From assembly GCA_011176535.1 (NCBI GenBank), contig DUEP01000082.1, positions 1 through 39,376 on the forward strand: DNA of 39,376 bases, in the 5' to 3' direction. The position numbers were made by a program, and so were the translations under genes. Positions 23,649 to 30,413 of the stretch are shown piece by piece. The DNA comes from Anaerolineae bacterium. Lineage in GTDB: Bacteria; Chloroflexota; Anaerolineae; Anaerolineales; DRMV01. Under the pieces are notes generated by a model that saw only the letters and a list, made by a program, of their open reading frames with translations, ran no database searches and had not been told where the DNA came from. Within the stretch, counting starts at the first letter, position 1. Every line of letters begins with the position of its first letter.

Positions 23649-25241
23649 ATGCAGCCCCGGCCCCCTGTGTTTCTCACCGAATTGCTGCGCCATCTCCCGT
23701 ATCCCGTGGAGCCACCGGAGAGCGACCCGCCCGTCACGGGTGTGGTGGCCGACTCGCGTCAGGTGCGCAGCGGGGATTTGTTCGTGGCGATCCAGGGCGT
23801 GCAGGTGGATGGGCACCGTTTCATCGAGGCGGCCATCGCCCGCGGGGCCTCGGCCGTGGTGGGTACGGAGCCGCGCGAGGGCCTGTCGGTGCCTTACATC
23901 CGCGTGCGCGACGGCCGGGAGGCGCTGGCTTATCTGGTGGCGGCGTTTTACGGCCACCCCTCGCGCCAGATGACCCTCATCGGTGTCACCGGCACCGACG
24001 GCAAGACGACCACCACCAACCTCATCTTTCACATCCTTAAGGCGGCGGGCCTGGCCGCCGGAATGATTTCCACGGTGAACGCGGTCATCGGCGAGCGGGT
24101 GTTGGATACCGGTCTGCACACCACCACCCCCCCTGCCCCTGAGGTGCAGCGCTACCTGGCCGAGATGGTCGAGGCCGGAACCACCCATGTGGTGCTGGAG
24201 GCCACTTCCCATGGGCTGGCGCAACATCGCGTGACCGGCTGTGACTTTGACATCGGCGTGGTGACCAACATCACCCACGAGCATCTGGACTTTCACGGCT
24301 CCTATGAGGCCTACCGGCGGGCCAAGGCGCGGTTATTCGATCTGGTGGCTCAGGCGGCGGTCAAGCCTCACGACGAGATTCGCTTAGCGGTGCTCAACCG
24401 CGACGACGCCTCCTATGCCTACCTGCGGGAATGGGTGCGCGTGCGGCAGGTCACCTATGGCTTGCACCCTCAGGCCGAGGTGCGCGCCGAAGAAGTGCGC
24501 TTTACCCCGCAAGGGCTGTTTTTCACCGCCGTGGGGCCGGGGTTCCGTGTGCCCATTGCCTCTTCGCTGGTGGGCGATTACAATGTGAGCAACATCCTGG
24601 CCGCGCTGACGGCCACCGTGGTGGGGCTGGGCATCGACCCCGAGGCCGCGCGCGCCGGGGTGGCGGCGGTGCGCAGCATCCCCGGTCGCATGGAGCGCAT
24701 CGATTTGGGGCAGGCGTTCACCGCCATCGTGGATTTCGCCCACACCCCCAACGCCTTGCGGCGCGCCCTGGAAACCGCGCGGCGACTGACCCGTGGGCGG
24801 GTGATCGCCGTCTTTGGCAGCGCCGGACTGCGCGACCGGGCCAAGCGGCGCATGATGGCCGAGGTTTCGGCCCAGCTGGCCGACATCACCATCCTCACCG
24901 CCGAGGACCCGCGCACCGAATCCTTAGACGCCATCCTGGCCGAGATGGCCGCCGGGGCGGAGGCCCACGGCGCCGTGGAAGGGGAGACCTACTATCGCGT
25001 GCCCGACCGCGGCGAGGCGCTGCGCCTGGCGGTGCGTCTGGCCCGGCCCGGCGATGTGGTCATCGCCTGCGGCAAGGGCCACGAACAGAGCATGTGTTTC
25101 GGCGAAATCGAATACCCCTGGGATGACCGGACGGCCTTGCGGGCGGCGCTGGCCGAGTTGTTGGGCGTAGAGGGCCTGCCCATGCCCTACTTGCCCACCC
25201 AGGGCCCTCCGCCGGAGGAGGAGAGCGACGATGCGGCGTGA
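23649..25241 (+). CDS. murE: UDP-N-acetylmuramoyl-tripeptide synthetase (MurE-type Mur ligase)
   Basis: 530 residues. It adds the third amino acid to UDP-MurNAc-L-Ala-D-Glu with ATP. Domain 1 starts with VTGVVADSRQVRSGDLFVAI. The ATP-binding loop is GVTGTDGKTTTTN (112-124). The central domain has LEATSHGLAQHR and NITHEHLDFHGSYEAY. The C-terminal domain has FAHTPNALRRAL, FGSAGLRDRAKRRMMAEVS and CGKGHEQ. The substrate-selecting tetrad is E419-D-P-R422 instead of DNPR of diaminopimelate enzymes, so the added residue may differ (ornithine or lysine are possible). ATG 23649 is chosen for the CGGAGGG just before it. Its 3' end overlaps the next gene by 11 bp. Confidence 0.9.
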   Translation: MQPRPPVFLTELLRHLPYPVEPPESDPPVTGVVADSRQVRSGDLFVAIQGVQVDGHRFIEAAIARGASAVVGTEPREGLSVPYIRVRDGREALAYLVAAFYGHPSRQMTLIGVTGTDGKTTTTNLIFHILKAAGLAAGMISTVNAVIGERVLDTGLHTTTPPAPEVQRYLAEMVEAGTTHVVLEATSHGLAQHRVTGCDFDIGVVTNITHEHLDFHGSYEAYRRAKARLFDLVAQAAVKPHDEIRLAVLNRDDASYAYLREWVRVRQVTYGLHPQAEVRAEEVRFTPQGLFFTAVGPGFRVPIASSLVGDYNVSNILAALTATVVGLGIDPEAARAGVAAVRSIPGRMERIDLGQAFTAIVDFAHTPNALRRALETARRLTRGRVIAVFGSAGLRDRAKRRMMAEVSAQLADITILTAEDPRTESLDAILAEMAAGAEAHGAVEGETYYRVPDRGEALRLAVRLARPGDVVIACGKGHEQSMCFGEIEYPWDDRTALRAALAELLGVEGLPMPYLPTQGPPPEEESDDAA

Positions 25242-25740
25242 GATCCTCACCTGGGAAGAAGTGGATCGCCTGATCGATCACCTGTTGCCTCAGTTCGAGA
25301 CCGAGTTCGACGCCATGGTCATCATCACTCGGGGCGGTCTCATCCCTGGCGGGATGCTGGCCGAGGCGCTGAACCTCAACTATATCCTCACCGCAGCCGT
25401 GGACTTCCCTTCTCAGGTGGCCATGGAGCGGGCCAAACTGGTCGCCTGGCCTAAATTCCTGCAGTTCCCCGAGGAGGGGCTGCTGACCGGACGGCGCACC
25501 TTGATCGTGGATGATGTCTGGGGGTCGGGGCGCACGATGACCGCGGTGCGGGCGCGTGTGTTGGCGGCGGGGGCCACACCGTACACCTGCGTGCTGCATT
25601 TCAACCCCCATCGCAGCCTATTTGGGAGTTTGCGACCCGATTACTACGCGGCCATCACCGATGCCTACATCGTCTATCCCTGGGAAATCGACCGCGGGAT
25701 CGACAAGGTACCCTTGACCTCCCCCCTGGGCGAGGGGTAG
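25231..25740 (+). CDS. Purine-type phosphoribosyltransferase (COG2236-like)
   Basis: A 169-residue type I phosphoribosyltransferase. The PRPP-binding motif is LIVDDVWGSGRTM (about residues 90-102), the first loop is VIITRGGLIPGGML, and the C-terminal YIVYPWE places an aromatic stacking residue over the base. This combination is typical of hypoxanthine/xanthine/guanine transferases of the COG2236 group, used in purine salvage; the preferred base is unknown. AGGAGGAG within murE precedes the ATG, so it is translationally coupled to murE, with no obvious metabolic link. Confidence 0.85.
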   Translation: MRREILTWEEVDRLIDHLLPQFETEFDAMVIITRGGLIPGGMLAEALNLNYILTAAVDFPSQVAMERAKLVAWPKFLQFPEEGLLTGRRTLIVDDVWGSGRTMTAVRARVLAAGATPYTCVLHFNPHRSLFGSLRPDYYAAITDAYIVYPWEIDRGIDKVPLTSPLGEG

Positions 25741-25775
25741 CACCAGGGGCCAGAAGATGGCCCCTGGTGTTTTTT
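25741..25775 (+). terminator. Rho-independent terminator
   Basis: A perfect 12-bp stem, CACCAGGGGCCA (25741-25752) and TGGCCCCTGGTG (25758-25769), with a 5-nt loop and six T residues (25770-25775). It begins directly after the stop of the phosphoribosyltransferase gene. The T run serves the plus strand only. Confidence 0.95.
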
Positions 25776-25778
25776 CGG

Positions 25779-26045
25779 TTACAGTTGCTCGAAGCGTTCC
25801 ACGGGGATGACGAACACCGTGCCCCGTTTGATGGCCGGCTCGGCCGGAGCCGCGCAGTGTCCCCGGATGAGTTGGAGGGCTTCCTCGACCTGGTGCTCTT
25901 CCACCCCGATGAGGATGGTGGCTGACCCCTTGCGCAAGAACCCTCCGCTGGACGCGATTTTGGTCACCCGGTAGCCGGCTTCCAGCAGGGCTTCGCTCAC
26001 CTGAGCGGTGTCGTCTTCCTGGATGATGGCAATAATCAGTTTCAT
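25779..26045 (-). CDS. DarA/PstA-like PII-type protein (cyclic-di-AMP receptor family)
   Basis: A small 88-residue PII-like protein of the DarA/PstA (DUF970) group, whose studied members bind cyclic di-AMP as trimers. It starts MKLIIAIIQ, has GYRVTKIASSGGFLRKGS (24-41) and ILIGVEEHQVEEAL, and ends in TVFVIPVERFEQL. Ligand-contact positions of the family, as I recall them, are kept at Arg26, Thr28, Phe36, Leu37 and Gly47; Gly24 and Ser41 replace common Asn residues. It is about 20 residues shorter than typical DarA, and the missing part is the large B-loop before the last strand. It lies 30 bp downstream of an antiporter that carries the same fold. AAGAGGTG precedes the ATG. Confidence 0.88.
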   Translation of the reverse strand: MKLIIAIIQEDDTAQVSEALLEAGYRVTKIASSGGFLRKGSATILIGVEEHQVEEALQLIRGHCAAPAEPAIKRGTVFVIPVERFEQL

Positions 26046-26075
26046 GGCAACACCTCTTGAGGGGGACAGGTTGGG

Positions 26076-27974
26076 TTAGATTTCTTCGTAGTGCTCCACA
26101 GGGAACAGGAACACCGTCGCGCCGCCTATGGTGACGGCTTTGGGGCGCGGGAGGGGCAGGGGCAGCCCCCTGGCCGCCCCTTCGGCCACGAATTCCACCC
26201 GACGGCGACAACTGGCCTGAAGGGCCTGAATCACATCCTCTACCTGCCCTTCGGGGATGCCCAGCATCAGGGTCAGGTTGCGCCGCTGCAGGAATCCACC
26301 GGTGCTGGGGAGCACCGTCACCGGGACGCCCAGTTTAGCCATGGCTTCGGCCGCGTTCTCGAAGTCCTGCTCCTGAATGATGGCCAGGGCCAAGTGGCGG
26401 ATGGGGGGCTCTTCCGCCGAGCGCCGCAGCAGGGACCCCGGCCAGGGCGGGAGTTCCAAAGCCAGGGCTTCGTCCACCTCGGCGGCCAGGCGGGAGAAGG
26501 TCTCCTCGGTGATAACCCCGTTTTGTAGCAGTTGCATCAGCGCACTGCGCTGGGCGCGCAGGGCTTCCAGCCGTGCGTTGCGCAGATCCTTCAGCGCCAG
26601 TTCGGGGTGGCGGCGCAGCAGTTCGTGCACCAGGGATTGCAGGCTGCGGCTGCGCTGTTCCAACAGGGGGCGCAGAATGCGCCAGGAATGTTCGGAGATC
26701 AGGCCGTCCTGGTACAGGTTTTTCAGGTGCTGATAAGCGGTGCGGGTGCTCACGGCGCGGGCGTGGCGCTCCTCGTAAAGCACCTGTTGTTCGTCCCGCT
26801 CGATGATGTTCAGTTTGCGAATGAGCATGCCGATGGTGCTGCCCTGCACCAGCAGCGTGAAGAGCACCACGCCGAAGGCCATCACCTGCACGAGAACGCC
26901 GTCGGGGCCCAACAGGGAGGGAAGCGCCACCGCCAGGGCCAGCGAGATGGCGCCCCGCAGGCCACCCCAGTACAGGATGTGCAGCCAGCGGAAGGGGATG
27001 CGGTCGCCCACCCAGGCCAGGCCGTACACATCCAGCGCCCGCGAGACCAGCACTGCCAGGATGGCCCAGCCGATCAGCACCAGATTCTCCCAAATGAGGG
27101 GCAGGTTGACCTGCAGTCCGATGAGCAGGAAGACGAAGGTGTTGGCGAAGAAGGACCCTGTTTCCCAGAAGTTGGTCACCACGATACGGGTGGTGGGGGA
27201 CATGCCTTTGGGGCCGATGTTGCCGTTGAGCAAGCCGGCGGCCACTACGGCCAGCACCCCGCTGACATGCAACTGTTCTGCCACCAGGTAAGCGCCGTAG
27301 GCCAGCACCACGGTCAGGGCCGTTTCCAGCAGGTAGTCGTCAACGCGGGCGATGATGCCCGATATGAGGGCCCCCAGCAGGCCGCCCACCAGCAGGCCGC
27401 CGCCGGCCACCCGTAGGAAGTCCACCACGCTTTGAAACAGGTTGAACTGACCGGTGAGGATGACCGCCAGCACCAGGTTGAACACCACGATGGCCGTCCC
27501 GTCGTTGAGCAGGCTTTCCCCTTCCAGCAGCACCTGCATCCGCTTGGGCACACCCAGGCGGCGGAACAACGTCACGACGGCCACCGGGTCGGTGGCGGCC
27601 ACCAGGGCGCCGAAAAGCATGGCGATGGGCAGGGGCAGCCCGGCGAAATAGTGCATGATGCTGCCCACCACCAGGGTGGTGAGCACCACTCCGGGGACAG
27701 CCAGGGTGAGGATGGGGGCCAGATCCTTGCGTAAGGCGTCGGCCCGCAGGTGGAAAGCGGCCTCGAAGATCAGAGGGGGAATCAGCAGACCCAGGACGAG
27801 GTCCGCCGTGAGGGGGATGTCCAGCCGGGCGAAGATGGCCAGGCCCAATCCCACCAGCACCAACCCCAGGGTGTAGGGCACCCGGAGGCGTCGGGCGGCC
27901 AGCCCGACCAACACGGCCACCAAAAGCAGGCCGATGGTCACTTCCAGGACGAGGAGCAAATTGAGTTCATCCAT
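26076..27974 (-). CDS. CPA1 Na+(K+)/H+ antiporter with C-terminal DarA-like domain
   Basis: 632 residues. Residues 1-392 are a CPA1/NhaP-type cation/proton antiporter with about 12-13 membrane helices: ATDPVAVV at 127-134, the catalytic Asn157-Asp158 pair in SLLNDGTAIVVF (typical of electroneutral exchange), and GGLRGAISLALAVALP. Residues 393-524 are a charged helical cytosolic segment. Residues 525-632 match DarA/PstA proteins: LALAIIQEQDF, VPVTVLPSTGGFLQRRNLTL, LGIPEGQVEDVIQAL, then a full B-loop and GGATVFLFPVEHYEEI. The position equal to DarA Arg26 is Pro, while Thr, Phe, Leu, Asn and Gly contacts are kept. AAAGGAGA precedes the ATG. It is probably co-transcribed with the stand-alone paralogue. 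Confidence 0.9.
   Translation of the reverse strand: MDELNLLLVLEVTIGLLLVAVLVGLAARRLRVPYTLGLVLVGLGLAIFARLDIPLTADLVLGLLIPPLIFEAAFHLRADALRKDLAPILTLAVPGVVLTTLVVGSIMHYFAGLPLPIAMLFGALVAATDPVAVVTLFRRLGVPKRMQVLLEGESLLNDGTAIVVFNLVLAVILTGQFNLFQSVVDFLRVAGGGLLVGGLLGALISGIIARVDDYLLETALTVVLAYGAYLVAEQLHVSGVLAVVAAGLLNGNIGPKGMSPTTRIVVTNFWETGSFFANTFVFLLIGLQVNLPLIWENLVLIGWAILAVLVSRALDVYGLAWVGDRIPFRWLHILYWGGLRGAISLALAVALPSLLGPDGVLVQVMAFGVVLFTLLVQGSTIGMLIRKLNIIERDEQQVLYEERHARAVSTRTAYQHLKNLYQDGLISEHSWRILRPLLEQRSRSLQSLVHELLRRHPELALKDLRNARLEALRAQRSALMQLLQNGVITEETFSRLAAEVDEALALELPPWPGSLLRRSAEEPPIRHLALAIIQEQDFENAAEAMAKLGVPVTVLPSTGGFLQRRNLTLMLGIPEGQVEDVIQALQASCRRRVEFVAEGAARGLPLPLPRPKAVTIGGATVFLFPVEHYEEI
26079..26402 (-). 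other. DarA-like sensor domain within the antiporter
   Basis: The codons for residues 525-632 of the antiporter. The domain is 108 residues, the usual length of a stand-alone DarA protein, so it looks like a gene fusion rather than a fragment. It shares AIIQE, GGFL, QVE and TVF-PVE with the neighbouring 88-residue protein. Confidence 0.85.
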
Positions 27975-28028: not shown

Positions 28029-30413
28029 TCAGGGCTGATGGGCGCCGCGCAGCAGCACGCGGGCAGGGGGCGGGGGCAGCGGGGCTGTGGCGCCGTGGGG
28101 AAAGCGCACCGTGCCGCCCTGGGGAGCGACGGTCAGCCGCACGCCGCGCCAGAAAAGGGTCACCGGGTGGGCGAAGGCGCTTTCGGCCTGGAGTTCAATG
28201 GCCTTGGGCGTCAGGGAGACCACCCCGGCCAGACGCAGCGCCGGGCTCAGGGGCGGCAGGCCCAGGAGCACATTGCGCTGGCCCATGCCCTTCCCGGTGC
28301 GGGCGTGGTAGGCCTCGCGGAGGTAGCCTTCACGCTGCAGCGTCTCGCCGGCCCCTTGCCAAAGGCGGGTGAGCAAATCGGCGGCCAGGGGACGGGCACC
28401 GGCCTGCTCCAACCCTTCCAGGGCGAACAGGTTCCACAGCATGTGCACCGCCTCCCAGGCCGGGGCCTTGGGCCGCCTGGTGGGCACCAGGGGCAGCCCA
28501 TAGGGGCGAGCGTAGCCCTGGGGGCTTTGCAGCCGGCGGAGCACCTGCTGCTCCTGGGCGGGGGTGAGCATCCCGGCCCAAAAAGGCAGGAGCAGGGTAA
28601 GGTCGGTGCGCGTCAGGTCGGGCGTGCGCACCTCCACACGCGCCGAGGCGGGGAGGCCCTCCACGGTGAGGCTTTCCAGGCAGGCGTAGGTTTGCGTGGC
28701 GTTGAACACCATGCGCCCTTCGTACCAGGTCGGCGGCGCCGTCAGGTCTTCCCGGAGGGGCCGCCCCTGGCCGTCGCGACCCCGGAGGTGCACCTGAGGC
28801 CGCAGAGGGGCGTCGGCGTACACGATGATCACCGGGCGTATCGGAGGCGAGGCTTCTCCGCAGGGGCGCAGCGGGACGGCGCCCGAACCGCGGAGCTGGC
28901 CCAGGCGTTGCCCCGGCAGGCTCAGGTGGGTGTCGCGGTCCCAGCGCAGCGGGTGGGCGCGGCGGGGGTCCCAGGCCTGCTGCACCGCCTCCCGCAGGCG
29001 CCGGGCCCAGGCGCGGAGGGGTTTTTGCGCCTGGGGGCGTTGGGCCGGTGGGGCCAGGTTTTCCAGCACCTGGCAGGCGCGGTAGAGCAGCGCCCAAAGC
29101 GCCGGGTCCTCGACCGTGGCGAGGTCGGCGCCGGTGGACCAGGGGTGCCAGGGGCTGAACTCGGGCAGGCTCTCCAGCCCCACCTGAGCCGGATGGTGCC
29201 ATTCGGGCAGTCCGTCACTGTCGGTGTCCTGCTCCGGCGCAAACCACACCTGCAGGAAGCGCCACAACGGCTCGAACATCTGAGCGGCGAAGGCGGGGTC
29301 GGGCTGTGCAGCGTAAATCCGACCGGCCAGGTCCACCAACAGAGGCGAGGCCAGCGCGTGGGCCTGTTGGCCTGCCGGGCCTGGGCCCGCGTCGATCCAG
29401 CCGTCCGGTCGTTGGTGGGCCAGAAAACCCTGCAGCAGTTCGGCAGCCAAATTGGGGGCGTGGGGCAGCAGAAAGGCACTGCTCAGATACCACACCTCGG
29501 GCACGGTGAGACCGCTCCAGGCTGGGGGGTGGTCGCTGCCGTGGCCGTTGGGTGAGTAGCCCTGGTCCGGTTCCCGGGCGCGCAGGGCGAAGCGGTGCTG
29601 ACCCTCGCCGAAAGGCCCGTGGAGCAGGCGCAGGGCGCTTTGGCGGGCAAAAGTCAGCGCCCAGGCCTGAGTTTCGTCGGCGGGCTGTATCCTGGGCCAG
29701 GCTTGGTCGGCCAGGCGCAGGCGGGTGATTTGGGCTTCCCAGGGCCGGGCCGCCAGTCGGCGGGCGGTTTCCAGCCCGGCTTCGGCCTCGTAACCGACCA
29801 GATGGACCAGGGTGAGGCGACGCTCCTGGCCGGGGACCAGATCCAGGGGCAAAACCAGCGTGGGGTAGGGGCTGTACAGCCCTTCCGGCCCACCGGTGAG
29901 GAAGATGAGCAGGGGCAGGCCCTGGGTCTCCCCGGTGAGGAGCGCCGTGGCGTGATGCTGCCAGGGCTCCATGGGCCGCCCCTCTTCCCCCGGGCTGAGG
30001 TCGGCCACCCAGCCCAGGTACAGGGTCAGCGGTTCCGGGCCCGAATTGCGCAGGCTGAGGCGTGCCATGGCCGTCCGTCCGTCGGGGATGAACCATTCCA
30101 GCCGCCCCTGCGCCGTGGCGTGAGGCCGAAACTGAACTGCGGCGTAATTGGGGGCCAGCGCGGTCAACCGGAAGGGGCTGTCCTCCAGGCTCAGGCCCAT
30201 CACCTGGCGGCGTTCGGGGTCGGCGAAAAGCAGGGGGAACAGCCGCATGTGGCGGGCGCGGAGCCCGTAGGTGGTTTCCAGCACCACGGTGGTGGGGGCG
30301 TCTCTCAGGCTCAGGGCCCAGATGGTGTCGTCCACATAGGAAAGGGACCCCAGCCGCGCGTCGGCGGCCAGCACCAGGCGGTCCTGCGGCGAAAGGGAAC
30401 GGTCGCAGTGCAT
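28029..30413 (-). CDS. Six-hairpin glycosidase-like protein
   Basis: A 794-residue protein of the (alpha/alpha)6-toroid glycosidase type, loosely like GH63/trehalase or amylo-glucosidase families. Residues about 1-240 are beta-rich (SYVDDTIWALSLRDAPTTVV, LRNSGPEPLTLYLGWVADL). The helical toroid begins near 265 (WALTFARQSALRLLHGP). It includes AAELLQGFLAHQRPDGWID and DTDSDGLPEWHHPAQVGLE, a likely active-site segment, and continues through LWNLFALEGLEQAGARPLA. A small C-terminal beta domain ends it. No signal peptide is seen, so it should be cytoplasmic. The substrate is unknown. A TGgTAAAAT lies 6 bp before the ATG with no clear ribosome site. It may be co-transcribed with the antiporter 54 bp downstream. 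Confidence 0.72.
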   Translation of the reverse strand: MHCDRSLSPQDRLVLAADARLGSLSYVDDTIWALSLRDAPTTVVLETTYGLRARHMRLFPLLFADPERRQVMGLSLEDSPFRLTALAPNYAAVQFRPHATAQGRLEWFIPDGRTAMARLSLRNSGPEPLTLYLGWVADLSPGEEGRPMEPWQHHATALLTGETQGLPLLIFLTGGPEGLYSPYPTLVLPLDLVPGQERRLTLVHLVGYEAEAGLETARRLAARPWEAQITRLRLADQAWPRIQPADETQAWALTFARQSALRLLHGPFGEGQHRFALRAREPDQGYSPNGHGSDHPPAWSGLTVPEVWYLSSAFLLPHAPNLAAELLQGFLAHQRPDGWIDAGPGPAGQQAHALASPLLVDLAGRIYAAQPDPAFAAQMFEPLWRFLQVWFAPEQDTDSDGLPEWHHPAQVGLESLPEFSPWHPWSTGADLATVEDPALWALLYRACQVLENLAPPAQRPQAQKPLRAWARRLREAVQQAWDPRRAHPLRWDRDTHLSLPGQRLGQLRGSGAVPLRPCGEASPPIRPVIIVYADAPLRPQVHLRGRDGQGRPLREDLTAPPTWYEGRMVFNATQTYACLESLTVEGLPASARVEVRTPDLTRTDLTLLLPFWAGMLTPAQEQQVLRRLQSPQGYARPYGLPLVPTRRPKAPAWEAVHMLWNLFALEGLEQAGARPLAADLLTRLWQGAGETLQREGYLREAYHARTGKGMGQRNVLLGLPPLSPALRLAGVVSLTPKAIELQAESAFAHPVTLFWRGVRLTVAPQGGTVRFPHGATAPLPPPPARVLLRGAHQP

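Follow-up and report, generated by a model that had tools for sequence, protein, structure and literature searches.

A DarA-type domain fused to a CPA1 antiporter and a free short paralogue carry complementary half-sites of a putative c-di-AMP sensor in Anaerolineales

The stretch of Anaerolineae DNA analysed here (39,376 nucleotides, hereafter the window) encodes a CPA1 antiporter that ends in a DarA/PstA-type domain, followed by a free, shorter DarA paralogue. Across the order Anaerolineales, such long and short copies form two distinct families of paralogues, and the half-sites that they retain of the cyclic di-AMP (c-di-AMP) pocket known from PstA complement each other. Judging from sequence, we propose, with about even confidence, that the two proteins make up a PII-like heteromer, to which the free subunit adds the missing part, and that this heteromer would gate the antiporter as a c-di-AMP sensor. 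The features of the locus are:

26076..27974, minus strand: fusion protein of 632 aa, a CPA1 Na+/H+ antiporter with DarA/PstA (PF06153) at its C-terminus
26817..27923, minus strand: antiporter membrane domain, residues 18-386 (PF00999; fold of SOS1/SLC9C1/NHE/NhaP)
27501..27506, minus strand: ND motif of the ion site, N157-D158 (invariant in 27 relatives)
26460..26792, minus strand: cytosolic helical domain, residues 395-505, continuing into SOS1/SLC9C1 in sequence and fold
26079..26402, minus strand: fused DarA-type domain, residues 525-632 (PF06153 match, site residues, solved-structure match)
25779..26045, minus strand: free short DarA paralogue, 88 aa, without the B'-loop (PF06153, site residues, AF2 model)
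28029..30413, minus strand: MGH1-like glycoside hydrolase, 54 bp upstream of the fusion, syntenic with fusion and unfused DarA pairs
25739..25771, plus strand: terminator-like hairpin of 14 pairs with a T tail on the plus strand, just beyond the free gene (such sites are no commoner than in shuffles)

An earlier note on this DNA had read the larger gene as an antiporter with a DarA-type C-terminal domain, and profile searches bear this out. In Pfam, residues 18-386 match PF00999 (E 2e-71) and residues 528-631 match PF06153 (CdAMP_rec); the second match, with an E of 9e-20 and 71.4 bits where the gathering score is 27, is the significant PII-like profile match that the note had suggested looking for. 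RCK_C/TrkA_C (PF02080) was sought in the fusion by Pfam and is absent. The protein passes the NCBIfam cut-off for TIGR00831 a_cpa1 (311 vs 279.6 bits), and the ND motif of electroneutral exchangers is present at N157-D158, exactly where it had been read. Compared by sequence with solved c-di-AMP receptors, the fused domain matches L. monocytogenes PstA (LmPstA; 4rww, E 8e-17) as well as SaPstA and DarA. The AlphaFold model (mean pLDDT 84.5) consists of the membrane domain, the cytosolic helical domain at 395-505 and a beta-alpha-beta-beta-alpha-beta domain at 525-625.

Residues 13-505 of the fusion match SOS1/SLC9C1-type exchangers in sequence. The fold agrees, with rice SOS1 (8iwo) aligned over 461 residues at a VIA Z of about 49 and an rmsd of 3.8 and SLC9C1 at a Z of about 47, in a VIA-align search with the whole fusion whose listed matches were all antiporters and which so barely tested the DarA end. 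In SOS1 and SLC9C1, the cytosolic helical domain is followed by a cyclic nucleotide-binding-type domain. Pfam finds no C-terminal cyclic nucleotide-binding domain (CNBD) in the fusion, and PF06153 stands in its place. Because the same position is occupied by RCK_C in two Anaerolineae relatives (L081 and L082, 55-56% identity) and by a CNBD in an alphaproteobacterial relative (L115), we take it to be a sensor slot that DarA fills in the fusion. The published c-di-AMP signature was sought in the RCK_C domains of L081 and L082 and was not found.

The free gene lies 30 bp downstream of the fusion on the same strand, as the note said, and that strand is the minus strand; the fusion ends in TAA, and in the window the free gene is in frame with it. 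Of the note's description of a stand-alone DarA-like gene, PF06153 membership stands (87.7 bits vs a gathering score of 27, E 8e-25, Pfam), but the product is not full-length: at 88 aa, it does not have the roughly 25-residue B'-loop of full-length DarA. The structure nearest to its AF2 model (pLDDT 86) is LmPstA with c-di-AMP. Both proteins score far below the cut-off of 140 for the DarA equivalog NF058593 (fusion 73.9 bits, free protein 90.5), and on these scores they are divergent paralogues, not DarA itself. The window's genome has no other PF06153 genes.

That genome also has one diadenylate cyclase (DAC), which the note had proposed to look for. It is of the CdaA type, with a membrane N-terminus and the motifs LHDGAVII and RHRAALG, and is followed by a CdaR-like gene; because this CdaA-CdaR operon is present, c-di-AMP is probably made in the window's genome. 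DAC presence is weak evidence, and useless as a discriminator, since it is nearly universal in the order (87 of 91 genomes). With the cyclase and the profile match both present, two of the outcomes that the note had named as refuting its reading did not occur. No ydaO riboswitch was found in the genome. The terminator-like hairpin fits the convergent plus-strand gene at 25231-25740. As for the glycoside hydrolase, its synteny with the DarA pair extends across the order, and no solved relatives were found by sequence; its mannosylglycerate-hydrolase-like family may, speculatively, hint at compatible-solute turnover.

Our surveys covered 91 genomes of the order and 80 loci drawn from a collection of 84,980 genomes, and the fusion survey was systematic within Chloroflexota. 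In Anaerolineales, PF06153 occurs as a pair: a long copy of about 108 aa and a short copy of about 88 aa. The search across relatives that the note recommended was productive: about 40 distinct loci have the long copy joined to a CPA1 antiporter, and others have it free. The two copies are co-conserved: the short one is present in 25 of the 26 fusion genomes, sometimes on another contig, and the sole exception (G454) lies on a 3.9-kb contig of a fragmented assembly. Gaps between long and short genes at the same locus are mostly -4 to +15 bp. Several genomes of the window's family have the short gene unlinked (L160, L162, L187, L192), and genomes such as G443 and G452 have a fusion with no adjacent short gene plus an unfused pair elsewhere. 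Unfused pairs occur in the orders GH-CPA1-long-short (L083), CPA1-long-short (L166), CPA2-(small P-II-like)-long-short (L143, L145, L150, L151, L165, L182), GH-long-short (L146, L149, L152, L154, L167, L196) and long-short-MFS (L168, L173, L174, L177, L179), GH being the glycoside hydrolase.

Several variants deserve mention in their own right. In the last arrangement, the pair sits directly upstream of an MFS permease, and the MFS-linked long copies are a distinct clade in which N41 is lost, F36 is mostly lost and T28 and G47 are kept (PstA numbering). Besides the pair, two of the CPA2 operons encode a small protein that matches P-II (PF00543) weakly (L143:4576-4944(-) and L151:3989-4369(+)), which gives three different PII-like subunits per operon. 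At seven loci (L065, L067, L068, L069, L072, L074, L077), two different short DarA genes follow the fusion; in several of these, R26 is retained in one short copy and N41 in its neighbour, an arrangement that would be compatible with a 1:1:1 ring. A single PF06153 protein of about 106 aa is encoded between atpA and atpG at L210, L214 and L217 (G176, G290, G411). It forms a separate clade, within the F-type ATPase operon, with R26, F36 and N41 all replaced, and is a possible further link between c-di-AMP and ion transport. PF06153 matches in long frames of other Chloroflexota (G131, G187, G195, G320 and others) were rejected as fusions; they have no second Pfam domain and are probably unannotated frame extensions.

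In PstA, about half a site comes from each monomer, with R26, T28, G47 and Q108 from monomer A and F36, L37, N41 and F99 from monomer B (Campeotto et al., PMC4316997); G94 and T97 also come from the neighbouring monomer, on the B side (Choi et al., PMC4475381). T28A, GGFL-AAAA and N41A cripple binding, and deletion of the B'-loop does not (PMC4316997). The short copies keep half-site A (R26 in 56/63, T28 in 62/63, G47 in 58/63, Q, R or H at 108 in 61/63), and on the B side have lost G94 (kept in 1/63) and mostly lost N41 (24/63). The long copies show the complementary pattern. Their half-site B is kept (F99 49/52, L37 47/52, F36 42/52, G94 42/52, N41 38/52) and their half-site A is eroded, with R26 retained in 1/52, residue 108 in 5/52 and T28 in 28/52. 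On the tree, T28 changes between intact and lost 8 times in long copies vs once in shorts. Glutamate at 108 in long copies amounts to a charge reversal, because canonical Chloroflexota DarA have arginine there.

The window follows this division. Its fused domain keeps half-site B (GGFL at 559-562, N566, equivalent to N41, and GGATVF) and, on the A side, T28 and G47, and has lost R26 (P551) and Q108 (E); the free protein keeps half-site A (R26, T28, G47, Q108), with N41 replaced by S and G94 lost. Of the TKLXXXGGFLXXGNTT-type motif, the long copy has T, GGFL and N, and the short copy T and GGFL. With R26, T28, G47 and Q108 from the short protein and G35, F36, L37, N41, G94, T97 and F99 from the long one, the pair is complete (11/11), and all known contacts are present solely at the short(A)-long(B) interface. 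Averaged over 43 same-locus pairs, short(A)-long(B) has 9.5 of the 11 contacts intact, short-short 8.2, long-long 7.2 and long(A)-short(B) 5.8. The short(A)-long(B) combination beats long-long in 43/43 pairs, retains at least 10 of the 11 residues in 24/43 and has all 11 in 16/43; no other combination is ever complete. Paired p-values overstate independence because the rows share ancestry, and a trade-off at N41 between long and short partners is a non-significant trend (p = 0.25). The composite pattern is broken in some genera that have a DAC, with GGFL lost from the long copy at L189 and L195. At L203-L207 (G431, G464, G470), which represent one genus of the window's family, N41 and G47 are lost in both copies with a DAC present, which would suggest loss of function or a changed ligand.

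In the domain tree, whose details are weak because it has few columns, the long, short, canonical, MFS-linked and ATPase-operon forms separate, with 7 changes for 6 groups against a shuffled mean of 75. In the antiporter tree, the 40 fused rows need 4 changes, and the simplest story would be a single ancient fusion event, followed by losses or rearrangements. At L221, from a sister family within the class, nearly all site residues are kept in both copies, in what looks like the ancestral state.

CPA1 exchangers are dimers. PII-like proteins form three-fold rings (PMC4475381, PMC4316997), so a free subunit that completes the ring is a simple fit to a dimeric antiporter; PII heterotrimers are known from GlnB-GlnK, as cited in PMC5448240. 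We propose that each antiporter subunit supplies one long DarA domain at the end of its SOS1/SLC9C1-type helical domain, two per dimer, and that the free 88-aa protein completes a three-fold ring. Such a mixed ring seems fairly likely to us. Its simplest composition would be two long and one short, a stoichiometry to which we give a little less than even weight. The ligand, which we consider likely to be c-di-AMP, would bind where half-site A of the short protein faces half-site B of the long domain; no other interface has all the known PstA contacts. Ordering of the long copy's B'-loop and of the ring would then move the helical domain and switch ion/H+ exchange; gating of the exchanger is, in our judgement, just as likely as the identity of the ligand. 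The switch would rather be on than off, a modest preference guessed by analogy, because c-di-AMP activates KhtTU (PMC10117811). The earlier note had given the free protein two possible roles, of which mixed trimers gain strong indirect support from the complementary half-sites and ligand titration is not favoured. A broader version is tentative, and we rate it below the proposal for the window's locus. In it, two obligate, non-identical PII-like subunits would each contribute part of the pocket, the free one would license gating, and CPA1, CPA2 and MFS transporters of Anaerolineales would all use the pair as a general c-di-AMP module.

The fused domain might instead be a self-sufficient c-di-AMP sensor whose copies trimerise between neighbouring antiporter dimers, with the short protein a separate regulator or decoy that shares the operon. 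The window's long domain might indeed bind alone, because it keeps T28, N41 and GGFL, together with G47 and F99, and R26 is dispensable: position 26 is glycine in c-di-AMP-binding LmPstA (PMC4475381). The unlinked short genes in the window's family would also suit this reading. We nevertheless think it unlikely. T28 is lost in 24/52 long copies, and T28A abolishes binding (PMC4316997); the residue at 108, which faces phosphate, is glutamate in most of them; all 11 contacts never occur together in a long-long pair; a three-fold ring stays incomplete on a two-fold antiporter unless another partner joins; and the short copy is kept in all but one of the fusion genomes.

Two further readings appear somewhat less probable still, and equally so. 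The heteromer may be real and bind another ligand, such as ATP/ADP, another cyclic dinucleotide or something else, which would be consistent with the family's divergence below the NCBIfam DarA cut-off, the binding of ATP/ADP by PII relatives, the many pairs with an incomplete composite site and the genus that lost residues in both copies and kept its DAC. Against this stand the absence of a Walker-type B-loop, the PstA-specific GGFL turn and T28 being among the best kept residues, the complete set of c-di-AMP contacts in the window and the CdaA-CdaR operon. Alternatively, the DarA domain could be mainly a docking or oligomerisation module, with the short copy acting in trans on several transporters or on the co-transcribed glycoside hydrolase. 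Pairs beside CPA2 and MFS transporters, or beside the glycoside hydrolase gene with no antiporter, and the genomes that combine a fusion lacking an adjacent short gene with an unfused pair elsewhere, agree with such a module; it does not account for each copy conserving a different half-site of the ligand pocket, when both could have lost theirs.

Our preferred reading, the heteromeric c-di-AMP sensor, has several implications. The long/short pair suggests that salt balance is switched by two proteins, and the fused antiporter suggests a first direct target for DarA/PstA, an old receptor family without a known one. Together with the unfused pairs beside other antiporters, the fusion makes the idea that DarA controls ion exchange directly testable. 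If true, a PII-like sensor with split half-sites would be of a new design, in which obligate heteromer formation lets a trimeric sensor work on a dimeric transporter, and a sensor besides RCK_C would be added to c-di-AMP control of ion balance.

In the open-access literature searched, we found neither a DarA/PstA-antiporter fusion nor a split DarA site described, in keeping with the note's remark that a built-in DarA gate was not known as described, and no paper on c-di-AMP signalling in Chloroflexota. Already known is c-di-AMP control of antiporters through RCK_C; DarA fused to an antiporter and the split half-sites are, as far as that literature goes, new. DarA/PstA is described in PMC7900238 as a free homotrimer of unknown target. 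Between them, the window's proteins share with the DarA/PstA of Firmicutes the fold, the GGFL turn, T28, N41, G47 and F99, and half-sites that lie on two neighbouring subunits. The known members are homotrimers of free, full-length proteins; in the window, an antiporter carries one copy as its last domain, the B'-loop is missing from the other, and the half-sites are divided between them. KhtTU and CpeAB are cation/H+ antiporters under c-di-AMP through RCK_C in KhtT and CpeA (PMC10117811), and CpaA is another that is bound or controlled by c-di-AMP (PMC4316997). The likeness lies in a c-di-AMP receptor, here a predicted one, coupled to a cation/proton antiporter, but the Kht and Cpe receptor is an RCK_C dimer and ours a PII-like DarA domain on a CPA1 exchanger without RCK. 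Plant SOS1 and sperm SLC9C1 have the same layout of CPA1 exchanger, cytosolic helical domain and C-terminal ligand-binding-type domain; theirs is of the cyclic nucleotide-binding type, which L115 keeps, and here it is DarA. SbtA-SbtB and AmtB-GlnK likewise place a membrane transporter under a PII-like protein. Their partners are free homotrimers on trimeric transporters, whereas the window's antiporter, which belongs to a dimeric family, has one of the PII-like subunits covalently joined to it.
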